Below are positions 14,408 to 28,131 of a stretch of DNA of 47,637 nucleotides, piece after piece (the first letter of the stretch is position 1; each line of letters starts with the position of its first letter). The position numbers and the translations under genes were made by a program. Where the stretch lies: NCBI GenBank assembly GCA_016783555.1, contig JADHWH010000006.1, positions 1 to 47,637 of the forward strand, given 5' to 3'. The notes beneath the pieces were generated by a model. That model worked only from the letters and a program-made list of their open reading frames with translations, was not told the DNA's origin and did no database searches. The stretch is from Candidatus Omnitrophota bacterium (GTDB taxonomy: Bacteria; Omnitrophota; Gorgyraeia; JABMRJ01).

Positions 14408-14758
14408 CTACTCACCTACTATATCAATAGTCGTAAGCCCGCTGCCTAAATCAACCAGCCTCGCGTTGTAGCCCTTGCGCCTTATGGTATCCAATATTCT
14501 GCCGTAGATCCTCTCCTTGCGGTCCTTGTCATTTATAAGTTCGCCCTCAAAAAGAGATAGGTCCTGGTTCATAAAACCCGGGTGCATACTCTTCATCTCT
14601 TTGGCCCATAACTCCATAGCATTTGGATTGCCTTTTAAACCATGTAGAGTTATTATGGAATCAGCGGCGAATTGGATATAGCCATCTTCATCTATGGCTA
14701 AAAGCGGGCTTCCGGATAAAAAGATAAAAACAAGCAGACTCAAGATAACCTTTTTCAT
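14408..14758 (-). CDS. Small secreted protein of unknown function, controlled by palindrome copy C
   Basis: Signal peptide MKKVILSLLVFIFLSGSPLLA; SD GGAGG lies in the palindrome arm GGAGGTCTAACGGG-ATG. Confidence 0.6.
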   Translation of the reverse strand: MKKVILSLLVFIFLSGSPLLAIDEDGYIQFAADSIITLHGLKGNPNAMELWAKEMKSMHPGFMNQDLSLFEGELINDKDRKERIYGRILDTIRRKGYNARLVDLGSGLTTIDIVGE

Positions 14759-14804
14759 CCCGTTAGACCTCCTTTGTAAAACCCCGCTAGAAAGGTCTAA
14801 CGGG
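14759..14804 (-). repeat. Dispersed palindrome copy C, overlapping the SD of the 14408-14758 gene
   Basis: CCCGTTAGACC 14759-14769 / GGTCTAACGGG 14794-14804; middle copy CCCCGCTAGA 14782-14791. Confidence 0.9.
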
Positions 14805-14810
14805 ATTCAT
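14787..14810 (-). CDS. Candidate leader peptide MNPVRPF*
   Basis: ATG AAT CCC GTT AGA CCT TTC TAG with SD AAGGAGG-TAAGAA-ATG; stop lies inside the middle repeat copy. Confidence 0.45.
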   Translation of the reverse strand: MNPVRPF

Positions 14811-14813
14811 TTC

Positions 14814-15935
14814 TTACCTCCTTAACTTCCTTATCTGCTGAAGCATGTTGCCCAATTCCTCAATCACCACTCTGCCCATCGCAAATTTCACGCGCGGCCC
14901 GGCTCCTATCTTAGGCCTATCCATGGGGCCTTTTATGACAAAGTCGAATACTATATCTCCCCTGCCTGATCTAAGATACGGGGCCAGTTTGTTCACTGAG
15001 ACTTCTAAAAACCGGGCGTTCTCCATGCCGCGATCTATAACAAGGTTCAACCTGTGAAAAAAAATCGTTGTCAGAGAATCCGCGTAATTATCCCTGACGG
15101 AAAATCTGGTCTCGGAACTAAAAACGCCCTCGTTAAAGGAGAACGGCGTATAGCTGTTAAAGTACGGAAGGAATTGCATAAGGTCGATATCTCTTGTGTT
15201 AATGTTTAGGTCCGCATCAATTTTATTCTCCAAAACAGACGCTTCGGCATCAAGCTTGAAATACCCCCTCCCGAGCCTTGTAGGCATTCCAAACGTTATC
15301 TCGCATCTCAATGGAATGGCGCCGTAACGCGGCTCCTTCTCCGGCTCGGCCGCAAAAGCGACATTAAGCTCATCGCACTTTATAGAAAACGGCCCCTCGG
15401 CAACGAAATAATCCTCGAAATTAATCACCGAATCGCGTATATAGAGGGCCTTGACATTCTTTACAAAATTATAAAATTCGGCGGCCCCTCCTTCTGCCGA
15501 CGCGGCATAGGCGACTCCTCTTTCTTGTATCACCGGGTTAATGCAATTAGACAGATTAAAAAGACCGTCACGGTTTCTTACTATATTCAAAGACCCTCTC
15601 TCTATAATAATCCTCTCTACGACTACCTTACCCTCTTTTTGAAACCTCTCTTCGTTTAATTCGACGCTAAACCTTTCGGCATTAAAGACGTTCTCCTCGC
15701 CGAAACCTACTTCGGCCGGTATGGTAAAACCTTTAAAATTAATCGCATATTGATCGGGGCTTACAGAAATGGCCTCGAAGCTGACCTTTCTTTTAATAAG
15801 CGCGCTAAGCACATCTTGCAGCACATCCTTTCCGTAATACTTCATATAGAGCACTATGCCGCCTATTATAACGGCCATTAGAAGCGCGCAGATAACCAGA
15901 ATTTTAAACAGAAGTTTTATCAGTTTCATGCTCAT
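14814..15935 (-). CDS. DUF748/AsmA-like membrane-anchored protein
   Basis: N-terminal TM; DLNINTRDIDLMQFLPYFNSYTPFSFNEGVFSSETRFSV; GDIVFDFVIKGPMDRPKIG. Confidence 0.7.
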   Translation of the reverse strand: MSMKLIKLLFKILVICALLMAVIIGGIVLYMKYYGKDVLQDVLSALIKRKVSFEAISVSPDQYAINFKGFTIPAEVGFGEENVFNAERFSVELNEERFQKEGKVVVERIIIERGSLNIVRNRDGLFNLSNCINPVIQERGVAYAASAEGGAAEFYNFVKNVKALYIRDSVINFEDYFVAEGPFSIKCDELNVAFAAEPEKEPRYGAIPLRCEITFGMPTRLGRGYFKLDAEASVLENKIDADLNINTRDIDLMQFLPYFNSYTPFSFNEGVFSSETRFSVRDNYADSLTTIFFHRLNLVIDRGMENARFLEVSVNKLAPYLRSGRGDIVFDFVIKGPMDRPKIGAGPRVKFAMGRVVIEELGNMLQQIRKLRR

Positions 15936-20960: not shown

Positions 20961-22142
20961 TTACTCTTCCTTAAAAACAAACTTGAAGTCCTGTATAAAA
21001 GCTGTATCGGGATTATCCCTTATAAATTTCAGGAAGTGCCTTGCGCTCTCTGCATGTTTGCTGCCAGAGTCTATCTCTACGACCTTTTCGAGTTCGCTTT
21101 TGGCGCGGGAGGGGTTATTGTAGTAATTAAAAAACCACACAGCCAGATTATAGTGGGCAATCTGATCTGCCGGCTTCAAATTGACAATCTTCTCGTATTG
21201 TTTTGCCATAATATCGAAACGCTTTAAATCCAAATATTTACTGCAGAGGTTATGCAGGGCAAATATATAGTAGTCGACCAAATCCTCTTCAATCTCCGGC
21301 ATCTCTTCCACCGCTTCTTTGAAGACCTCAAACTCTGCCATGGCCTCTTCTTTTTTTTCTTGAAAGAGGTATGACCTGGCTAAGAAAAAATGGCCAGGGG
21401 GATAATCCGGTGCGTCTTCTACGGCTTTCTCAAACAGCTTAGTCGCTGCGTTCTTGGCATCGAGGTTCCAGTATATGTCGCCGAGGCGGACAATGACCGT
21501 ATAGTCGGTGGGGTCTTTTTCAACGGCATCCTTAAAACCCTTCTCTGCTTCTTTATAAAACCCTGCCGCATAATAGACTTCTCCTTTTAGCCTGTCAAGG
21601 TCGGGATACTCTGCCTTATTATCTTTCAGCCATACGATATGAGTGGCGGCGACAATCGGACTATGCGCTCCGTCTTCCAGAAGACTATTTAAAACCGCAA
21701 AATGGCCGAATGCCATCTTCTCCTTTATGGTATCGCGGTTGGCATCTTCATCTTCTCGGAGCAAACTATAAAGATCTTCTATCTCCTGGAGCATCCGCCG
21801 ATTATCGTCTATGGCGGTCATCGCGGATGAAATCTGCCTGGCGGTTATGCCCTGCGGGTTGGCATCCTTCGCCATTTTAAAGAATTCATATGACTTTTCG
21901 TATTCCATATTGCCGTAGTGTGAAGCCCCAAGGTCCAGATAGAGGCGGGGATTGTTCGGATGGTCTTTTAAAAGGAGCGTCAAATCATCTATCAAGCGCG
22001 CATAGTCACCGCTTAATATTATCTTACGTTCTATCTGGGCGATCTTACCATCTAAATCTTCTGCCCTGCAAATATCCTCATTTCTGATGAAGCCAAGCAA
22101 TATGAGGATTATTAAAGCAAATAAGACCTGCCTACTTTTCAT
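20961..22142 (-). CDS. Secreted TPR repeat protein
   Basis: Signal peptide; DHPNNPRLYLDLGASHYGNMEYEKSYEFF; DYTVIVRLGDIYWNLDAKNAATKLFEKAVEDAPDYP. Confidence 0.85.
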   Translation of the reverse strand: MKSRQVLFALIILILLGFIRNEDICRAEDLDGKIAQIERKIILSGDYARLIDDLTLLLKDHPNNPRLYLDLGASHYGNMEYEKSYEFFKMAKDANPQGITARQISSAMTAIDDNRRMLQEIEDLYSLLREDEDANRDTIKEKMAFGHFAVLNSLLEDGAHSPIVAATHIVWLKDNKAEYPDLDRLKGEVYYAAGFYKEAEKGFKDAVEKDPTDYTVIVRLGDIYWNLDAKNAATKLFEKAVEDAPDYPPGHFFLARSYLFQEKKEEAMAEFEVFKEAVEEMPEIEEDLVDYYIFALHNLCSKYLDLKRFDIMAKQYEKIVNLKPADQIAHYNLAVWFFNYYNNPSRAKSELEKVVEIDSGSKHAESARHFLKFIRDNPDTAFIQDFKFVFKEE

Positions 22143-22473
22143 ATTCGGTACCCTTTGAATCTTTTTTCAACATCTCATCGATTAAGTCCATCTTTCGTTC
22201 GTAATTTTCGAGCAGCTTGATGCTCTTAGACGTTGATCGCGGAATTTCCTTTACCGCATCCCAAAACAGAGAAAGCTCTTGCCCGAAAGCGCGCATCTTA
22301 ACCTTAAATTGCCTTAACTGCGCGGGGTGGGTCTTTGAGTATATTACAAGCGAAAGAATAATAATAAGAAATATTATACGGCGAAACCAGATACCCCTTA
22401 CCTTCTTATGGCAATATCTGCAGACCAGGGCATCGTCCTGAATCGTCTCCGCGCAGTACGGGCATTTCTTCAC
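22132..22473 (-). CDS. Zinc-ribbon membrane protein; start corrected to GTG (M/VKKCPYC...)
   Basis: KKCPYCAETIQDDALVCRYCHKK plus TM; SD GGAGGTCTAACGG-GTG in the palindrome arm; track start MRRSNG is repeat-derived. Confidence 0.75.
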   Translation of the reverse strand: MKKCPYCAETIQDDALVCRYCHKKVRGIWFRRIIFLIIILSLVIYSKTHPAQLRQFKVKMRAFGQELSLFWDAVKEIPRSTSKSIKLLENYERKMDLIDEMLKKDSKGTEYEK

Positions 22474-22533
22474 CCCGTTAGACCTCCTCATACCCGCTAG
22501 ATCTCTTCGTCGACCTTCAGAGGTCTAACGGGG
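22473..22533 (-). repeat. Dispersed palindrome copy D, overlapping the SD/start of the zinc-ribbon gene
   Basis: CCCCGTTAGACCTC 22473-22486 / GAGGTCTAACGGGG 22520-22533; middle copy CCCGCTAGATCTCT 22493-22506. Confidence 0.9.
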
Positions 22534-26799: not shown

Positions 26800-28131
26800 T
26801 TACCTGCAAACAGTGTATGTCGCGCCTCCGTGCGGAAAAACATATACGCGCGCGTTTTTTGGCGCGTACCTCTCGGCCTGCCGCAACATCTCCTCAAGAT
26901 CCGCAAACTGACGGAAGAGCCCGATTCGCTTACCGGTATTCCGCGGGAGTTTGTCAGAGTATACAAATATATGGTTCTTCCTTGCGATCTGCATTGAGAA
27001 GTGCATCAAAAAACGCTCCTCTACCCCCGCGCGTTTTTTGAATCTATCTATAAAACCGAGGATCCGCCCTTTGCCCAGCAGTTTCAGTATAAGCCGTAAC
27101 AATGTATACAAATGAGGGATCACAATCTTCGGAATGGCGACATCACCTATGCCGAACTTACACTCAAGCAGGGCCAGGATAATCCCTCCCTCTTTTACGC
27201 TGCCTCCAGCGTTGGCGATGCACTTTGTGCCCTGGCGCAAGTCTGTATTCATAGGATTGGAGACGACCAGAGCGACGTCGGCAAGCTCTCCGATATCTTT
27301 TGCGCACATGGACTCGGATATCTTTACTCCTTCCCTGTGGGCCATTACGGGATCGCCGCAGACAAAACGACAGATCTTAAGCTCTTGATTCAGTATAACA
27401 TTGACTATGAATATATCTTTCCCCAGCATCATGGCCGCCTCTTCAAGGTCAAGCCTCATGGGGCTTTCTCTTTTGCCTATATAATTAAATCTTTCACCGG
27501 ATACGCCCTGCATGTGATTCTCTGCTATCGTCTCCTCATGGGCAAGGCCGGGCAAGAGCATCTTTAGCCCTCCCCCGAAACCGAGCAATGGGTGCGGCTC
27601 AATCAATCCCACGCATATAATTATTCCGGCATCGGCAAGGTGCTTATTGAGCCGGACTGTGGTGCCTCTTTTTGTCCTTCCTACCTCTATATGGCTTCCC
27701 GCATCTTTATAATTATGATTTATCCAGCGAATGCCTTCAACGGCGCCCCTGCCTATTTTCCGGCTCAGGTCTTCGGTTGTCATACTGCGGTGCACCCCGA
27801 GCGCTGTTATAATCAAAATATCCTCTTTCCGGACGCCGCAGCCGTAAAGGTATTTTAAAAGCGACTGAAAAAACTGGTAGGTCGGCGTCGGCCGGCTTAT
27901 ATCGTCTACAACTATCACTATCTTTTTCTCGCTTAGCCGCTTCGAGTCTAACGGGGGAGAGCCGATCGGTCTCTTAAGGCCTTCGATCAGTGAACCTGAA
28001 ATATCGGTTAATGGGGAAATTGCGTTTGGTTTGAGCTCAGATATTACGCTCCAGCTCTCAGGAAGGTTTATGCAGACTCTTTTGCCCCCGAAAGGGATAT
28101 TAATCTGGTTTTCCGGCATAAAATGCGTCAA
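26800..28131 (-). CDS. LarA family (nickel-dependent lactate racemase-like, DUF2088)
   Basis: VVDDISRPTPTYQFF; ITALGVHRSMTTEDL; GLIEPHPLLGFGGGLKMLLPGLA; alternative start at MPENQIN (28119). Confidence 0.85.
   Translation of the reverse strand: MTHFMPENQINIPFGGKRVCINLPESWSVISELKPNAISPLTDISGSLIEGLKRPIGSPPLDSKRLSEKKIVIVVDDISRPTPTYQFFQSLLKYLYGCGVRKEDILIITALGVHRSMTTEDLSRKIGRGAVEGIRWINHNYKDAGSHIEVGRTKRGTTVRLNKHLADAGIIICVGLIEPHPLLGFGGGLKMLLPGLAHEETIAENHMQGVSGERFNYIGKRESPMRLDLEEAAMMLGKDIFIVNVILNQELKICRFVCGDPVMAHREGVKISESMCAKDIGELADVALVVSNPMNTDLRQGTKCIANAGGSVKEGGIILALLECKFGIGDVAIPKIVIPHLYTLLRLILKLLGKGRILGFIDRFKKRAGVEERFLMHFSMQIARKNHIFVYSDKLPRNTGKRIGLFRQFADLEEMLRQAERYAPKNARVYVFPHGGATYTVCR

Follow-up and report, generated by a model that had tools for sequence, protein, structure and literature searches.

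The palindrome at positions 14758-14805 (minus strand) of the window, that is, of the whole analysed stretch of 47,637 nucleotides of contig JADHWH010000006.1 from a Candidatus Omnitrophota bacterium, is best explained as a miniature, non-autonomous copy of a mobile element nested in start codons, the full-length form of which consists of inverted arms and a GIY-YIG open reading frame (ORF). We assign this reading a probability of nearly four in five.

The minus strand of 14754-14823 reads AAGGAGG-TAAGAA-ATGAA-[TCCCGTTAGACCTTTCTAGCGGGGTTTTACAAAGGAGGTCTAACGGGA]-TGAAAAAG..., the outer bracket enclosing the 48-bp insert (copy C, TCCCGTTAGACC...GGAGGTCTAACGGGA, with arms inverted). The native Shine-Dalgarno (SD) sequence AAGGAGG (14817-14823, minus strand), now serving a leader ORF, is followed by six bases and the ATG at 14810. 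From this native start codon the leader ORF is read as ATG AAT CCC GTT AGA CCT TTC TAG, or MNPVRPF* (14810-14787, minus strand), and its TAG lies within the middle, or third, arm copy TCTAGCGGGG (14791-14782, minus strand). The 3' arm GGAGGTCTAACGGG provides a second SD, AGGAGG (14768-14773, minus strand), and reaches the rebuilt ATG at 14758 which starts the host gene (14408-14758, minus strand). All these elements had been recognized in a preliminary description of the sequence and were found as claimed. The host gene had been called a secreted-protein gene; its 116-aa product does carry a secreted or lipoprotein-like N-terminus resembling a signal peptide (MKKVILSLLVFIFLSGSPLL...), and a Pfam search of the protein gave no match.

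Both edges of the palindrome are marked by exact direct repeats, TTCA/TTCA (TGAA/TGAA on the minus strand), which had been missed before. The upstream TGAA (14806-14809, minus strand) represents bases 2-5 of the native ATGAA, and the downstream TGAA (14754-14757, minus strand), together with the last base A of the element, rebuilds ATG AA. The two ATGAA motifs are therefore two copies of a single duplicated target site, and the flanks of copy C look as they would after an insertion with duplication of four target bases.

A second start-codon copy of 61 bp is located at 22473-22533 (minus strand), with a TGAA target-site duplication (TSD), a rebuilt GTG and a 13-codon leader that stops within the element. 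The GTG starts a gene for a 113-aa protein with a zinc-ribbon-like N-terminus (22132-22473, minus strand). Two related palindromes without SD lie away from start codons, at 1554-1604 (arms CCCCGTTAGAGAT, TSD TTTG/CAAA) and at 1720-1768 (arms CCCCGTTAGAAAT, TSD TTTA/TAAA). When one mismatch is allowed, the window contains 10 matches to the arm sequence CCCCGTTAGA, far above the 2.8 expected. One single match within an ORF at 27947-27956 (minus strand) is without partner and could be a relic or a chance match.

Copies across the genome and their target sites

The genome (G000; 1.77 Mb in 78 contigs) was searched for further copies, and 932 kb (53%), in stretches mostly picked for arm matches, were read base by base, with simple ORFs as gene calls. 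Exact arm pairs were detected 41 times genome-wide, and not once with the reversed control pattern; GGAGGTCTAACGGGRTGA with at most one mismatch was present at 83 places, compared with none for the reversed controls. Within the 932 kb a total of 91 copies were catalogued, and 88 of these carry a perfect 4-bp TSD; the catalogue admitted at most one TSD mismatch, and a second tally without that condition, though preferring TSD pairings, agreed. The TSD sequences include TGAA (60 copies), TGAG (12), TGGA (3) and TGAT (2), and the perfect inverted arm has a median length of 13 bp. A de novo search for inverted arms of at least 9 bp with equal flanking 4-mers gave 140 hits at the true register versus 19-46 at shifted registers.

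Empty sites were identified for two insertions. A 418-aa gene of genome G199 has its start codon interrupted by a 55-bp element; in G218 of the same genus this gene is intact (...GATCG ATGAAATATGACATAAAAG). The adk gene of the present genome reads ATGAG[105 bp]TGAGATTGGTT, and its counterpart in G001 of the same family is ATGAGATTGGTG, without insert. In both comparisons the insertion point follows the first base of the start codon, and the empty site is an intact ATGAA or ATGAG. Near-identical copies are present at unrelated loci, and together with the perfect TSDs and the empty sites they bear out the earlier suggestion of a mobile cassette.

The high frequency of TSDs also bears on the idea of REPIN-like palindromes mobilized by a Y1 (RAYT/TnpA-REP) transposase. 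The genome contains eight Y1_Tnp genes, and the elements are short palindromic pairs. Y1 transposition, however, is not known to leave a TSD, which 88 of the 91 copies here have, and neither arm matches nor nearby hairpins were detected at any of five Y1 loci examined. REPIN/RAYT membership was therefore rejected, its probability being close to nil.

As many as 69 of the 91 copies precede an ORF and split its start codon after the first base ([A/G]|TGAR). GTG or ATG is rebuilt from the element's terminal base (G or A) and the TSD (TGAA or TGAG), and the ORF behind the rebuilt NTG has at least 100 codons in 68 of the 69 cases. As a control, 13280 random TGA[AG] sites were examined: 2026 of them have an NTG with an ORF of at least 100 codons, and 183 also resemble a first start with SD. 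The outermost arm base pair covaries among the 91 copies (C..G in 74, T..A in 15 and G..C in 1), so that some families rebuild GTG and others ATG. A majority of copies lacking an SD or ATG at their flanks had been named beforehand as the outcome adverse to the cassette proposal, and the opposite was found.

The remaining copies with TGAN duplications are mostly the upstream members of tandems. The spacer between tandem copies is exactly one TSD (4 bp), and these copies are re-insertions into rebuilt start codons. Composite insertions of another kind, with an outer TGAA duplication and two elements joined by TGAT, were noted at L036 9934, L041 10250, L070 10448, L070 11698 and L076 3636; the second unit is always of the same type of about 64 bp, as if units had merged by recombination at the arms.

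The genes behind the elements are ordinary, often essential and functionally unrelated. When compared with NCBIfam profiles, the rebuilt starts fit the family N-terminus of Prs, PurA, Adk, DnaE and PurD, for which the profiles begin within the first few residues; RpoC, RpmH, RpoD and IF-2 (infB) were likewise recognized downstream of rebuilt starts. Further targets, assigned by eye from their N-termini, are uvrA, murB, fmt, mnmA, hisG, leuD and the gene for ribosomal protein L18. The genes headed by rebuilt starts must be expressed through the element. At L099 2490-2553 the native start before the element reads ATT (TSD TTAA vs TGAA), which suggests that this start has been degenerating since the handover.

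Among crude-called RTGAR starts in the part read, 60 are occupied versus 140 unoccupied. No sequence specificity beyond RTGAR was detected around the targets, the occupied sites resembling ordinary RTGAR starts. Seven copies are located in or at the edge of an ORF (L039 5659, L042 12804, L044 9894, L052 7299, L065 9569, L073 1894 and L074 15789), all with a length that becomes divisible by 3 when 4 is added, and five are short hairpins of 29-41 bp that lack an SD; a few other copies are intergenic. The non-start copies carry other, YNAR-like TSDs (TAAA, CAAA, CGAG, CTAG and TTAG). The bias for start codons may reflect either targeting by the enzyme or selection sorting the survivors.

The mover could in principle be a DDE transposase with a relaxed YNAR 4-bp preference, the GIY-YIG ORF being a passenger or hyperparasite and start codons prevailing simply because an insertion there does no harm and is difficult to remove. 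DDE insertion sequences typically generate 4-bp TSDs of the YNAR type, and both the non-start TSDs and the lack of a motif beyond ordinary RTGAR gene starts fit such an enzyme. On the other hand, essentially no TGAA copy exists away from starts even though 13280 TGA[AG] sites are on offer, and the full-length forms bounded by these arms, from several arm families, contained a GIY-YIG ORF alone, with no transposase seen. We consider movement by a DDE enzyme unlikely and favor an element with its own GIY-YIG nuclease.

The full-length element and its GIY-YIG nuclease

Full-length copies of 265-307 bp contain only the inverted arms and one GIY-YIG nuclease ORF. The copy of this genome (271 bp, C76:22518-22788) has the same arms, encodes a GIY-YIG protein of 92 aa and is inserted in the start codon of dnaE. 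Full-length GIY-YIG elements are also present in nine related genomes, all at ATGAA or ATGAG except for one decayed copy, the native start of which is now ATA. The element ORFs match Pfam PF01541 with E values of 7.5e-14 and 3.9e-13, and that of a second arm family with 2.6e-11. The nuclease ORF is without its own start: ATG AA is taken from the host gene and is followed by CCC GTT AGA CC, giving PVRP (M-N/S-PVRP...), and the ORF terminates at the TGA within the TSD, overlapping the rebuilt start (GTGA or ATGA). As the full-length ORF begins with MNPVRP, we read MNPVRPF* of copy C as the stump of the nuclease N-terminus, and the short copies in general look, from their sequences, like non-autonomous derivatives of the GIY-YIG element.

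The architecture shared by unrelated genes, including the upstream SD, the MNPVRP start, the position of the stop and the SD within the arm, is thus accounted for by one element inserted inside the start codon and by a nuclease-encoding parent with this N-terminus. The preliminary description had doubted that a single insertion event could readily explain this sharing. That view was right insofar as many separate insertions are involved, but each insertion gives the whole architecture in one step.

At one site shared by two species of a genus the elements are 92.9% identical compared with 65-75% for the flanks, as might be expected either from later arrival or from strong constraint on the element. 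The exact 3' end followed by TGA was found in 22 of 386 genomes phylum-wide. A nuclease search at E 1e-20 gave no match in some genomes having short copies (e.g. G040), and no relatives of the nuclease were found in viral contigs. An SD-less branch (arms CCCCGTTAGAGAT, TSD mostly TAAA), to which the window copies at 1554-1604 and 1720-1768 belong, has its own start codon and takes its stop from the TAA of the TSD. In two Omnitrophota genomes (L168 and L178) SD-less GIY-YIG elements with arms CCCCGTTAGAGAT and TSD TAAA appear to be located at the extreme 3' end of a phosphoglycerate-kinase-like gene and to provide it with a new stop, the end in L168 being ...ALTDK|PR*.

The de novo search also detected start-codon elements with unrelated arms (CCCAGCCCC, CCCAGCCCT and CCCCGCCCC) and TGAA duplications in the same genome, at L111 6742-7069 (G000:C9), L051 1961-2004, L053 8878-8942, L063 5746-5824, L068 13252-13348, L072 18616-18680 and L098 18176-18218. 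Most of them have a GGAGG or GGAAGG end before the rebuilt start, and the genes include metG-, rplX- and coaD-like ones as judged by eye. For the family with arms CCCAGCCCC, the C9 copy precedes an apt-like gene and is a full-length element that encodes a GIY-YIG ORF of its own in the same start-codon layout. That the SD recurs in elements with different arms speaks for its being functional and for an association of GIY-YIG with the arms. The one-gene GIY-YIG element of 265-307 bp may represent a new class, which targets start codons, lacks a start codon and ribosome-binding site of its own, takes the host translation start for its nuclease and returns translation by way of the arm SD and the stop/start overlap rebuilt by the TSD, this architecture having arisen with more than one arm sequence; we regard this wider proposal as evenly balanced between right and wrong.

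At L144 (G000:C46) and L145/L055 (G000:C53) more GIY-YIG genes lie between inverted repeats of other kinds (ATTCCCGC type and CCCTTGACATTTTG type). Small GIY-YIG genes may generally be linked to dispersed palindromes. An unrelated repeat of 131-136 bp (arms TTTGCGGGTGGCATTTGG, TSD AATT) is present in three copies, at L050 3141-3271, L054 317-451 and L064 17780-17915.

From the association of arms and ORF we propose that the GIY-YIG protein, or a relative, would make the staggered cut leading to insertion; to our knowledge, 4-bp TSDs at dispersed sites have not been established for the known GIY-YIG homing enzymes. Start codons would be favored as the only place at which the nuclease ORF is expressed and the host gene is kept alive. 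The need of a start-less nuclease ORF for expression is a natural selective reason for full-length copies to reside at starts.

Proposed translation through the element

The motif GGAGG is present at the gene-side end in 62 of the 69 start-codon copies, compared with 0 of 69 for the opposite end when reversed; in two copies an SD-like motif is absent from the scanned 3' arm. Of the 69 leaders, 40 terminate within the element and 22 at the overlapping TGA, and 7 are fused in frame to the gene; out-of-frame overruns do not occur. The 3' arm GGTCTAACGGGG|TGA reads TAA, TGA or an in-frame fusion in its three frames, and this is the reason why the leader never overruns out of frame. The possibility that leader frames are individually selected against overrun was rejected, the property being built in by the 3' arm and TSD.

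Prediction of the RNA fold indicated sequestration of the new SD, with z from -3.2 to -5.6. The arm stem of 13-15 bp is predicted to pair the new SD almost fully (unpaired probability below 0.11 at every base), and the host gene might therefore be repressed without leader translation. Removing the 5' arm, to mimic a ribosome that has reached the leader stop, is predicted to make the SD partly accessible (unpaired probability 0.15-0.65 per base). The leader thus probably acts as a translational coupler, as far as these models go: ribosomes that enter at the native start would unfold the 5' arm, terminate close to the 3' arm and reinitiate at the rebuilt start, and this translational coupling would keep the host gene expressed.

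The same features could be taken as an exapted regulatory leader, an attenuator-like switch in which two competing hairpins control the downstream SD. Besides the strong SD-sequestering stem and the partial access to the SD once the 5' arm is removed, the conserved leader ORF agrees with such a switch, as does the third arm copy, which is real (38 of 59 start-type copies versus 4.6 expected from shuffles). The same copy is nevertheless missing in the other 21, all short start copies, and the inner sequence and length vary (41 to 153 bp). The hairpin between 5' arm and middle copy, supposed in the preliminary description to compete with the SD-sequestering stem, is predicted at -14.9 kcal/mol against -24.1 kcal/mol for the full arm-to-arm stem; weaker by 9 kcal/mol, it is not the equilibrium fold. 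The TSDs and empty sites point to insertion, and genes such as dnaE, rpoC, infB, adk, purA, rpmH and a uvrA-like gene share no function. A dedicated regulatory switch is thus not supported, and exaptation as a regulatory leader appears improbable. From the earlier term of a mobile or exapted cis-regulatory cassette, "cassette" can be kept for a mobile element, but a cis-regulatory role is not supported, the genes being unrelated housekeeping genes.

Comparison with known systems

The miniature start-codon element proposed here resembles MITEs in being short, nearly or fully non-coding and present in many copies, with terminal inverted repeats, a TSD of fixed length and a longer partner with the same arms. 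The anatomical marks of a MITE family, inverted repeats, constant TSD and an autonomous partner with the same ends, are all present. Unlike MITEs, however, the partner encodes a GIY-YIG nuclease, which may act on the ends, in place of a transposase, insertion takes place mainly at one base position of start codons and the arms carry an SD. A 2024 review of prokaryotic MITEs mentions neither start codons nor GIY-YIG (PMC10969869). The single GIY-YIG domain, the selfish spread and what may be recent arrival at a shared site in two species recall GIY-YIG homing endonucleases, free-standing or intron-borne. These differ in lacking the inverted arms, the 4-bp TSD, the dozens of unrelated targets and the dependence of the ORF on the host start codon, and no intron or intein is involved here. 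The term "inverted repeat" occurs nowhere in the text of a 2006 survey of the GIY-YIG superfamily (PMC1564403).

Rickettsia palindromic elements (RPEs; PMC10969869) are likewise palindromes tolerated within genes of unrelated function, as are the seven frame-keeping copies in this genome. In-frame insertion in coding sequence, the main mode of RPEs, is however restricted to these 7 of 91 copies, compared with 69 at start codons, where SD and start are replaced and no peptide is added. Yeast mitochondrial GC clusters (GC42) also consist of short palindromes with short direct repeats, their units merge and are shuffled, and endonucleases have been proposed to move them (PMC4478555). GC42 clusters differ in being mostly intergenic, with repeats of 2-3 bp and no start-codon or SD logic.

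Integrative elements such as SXT at prfC regenerate the 5' end of the gene they enter, and here, too, the element end provides the new 5' part of the target gene. SXT-type elements use integrases and one site, in contrast to elements of 40-300 bp that enter many genes and supply only SD and start. In synthetic bicistronic designs a short first cistron opens the structure around the second SD, and its stop overlaps the next start. The arrangement of leader and SD is like that of these translational couplers (compare PMC5995908), except that it is natural here and made by insertion. No description matching start-codon insertion, GIY-YIG elements or Omnitrophota repeats of this kind was found in the open-access papers searched.

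A selfish element would thus have a way to live in essential genes without breaking them, by occupying the start codon, borrowing the translation start for its nuclease and supplying a new one. Being small, it lends itself to direct tests of the way in which a GIY-YIG nuclease might mobilize DNA that has inverted arms and duplicates its target. In this Omnitrophota genome a large number of start sites derive from the element, and this affects gene calling, N-terminal annotation and studies of translation.
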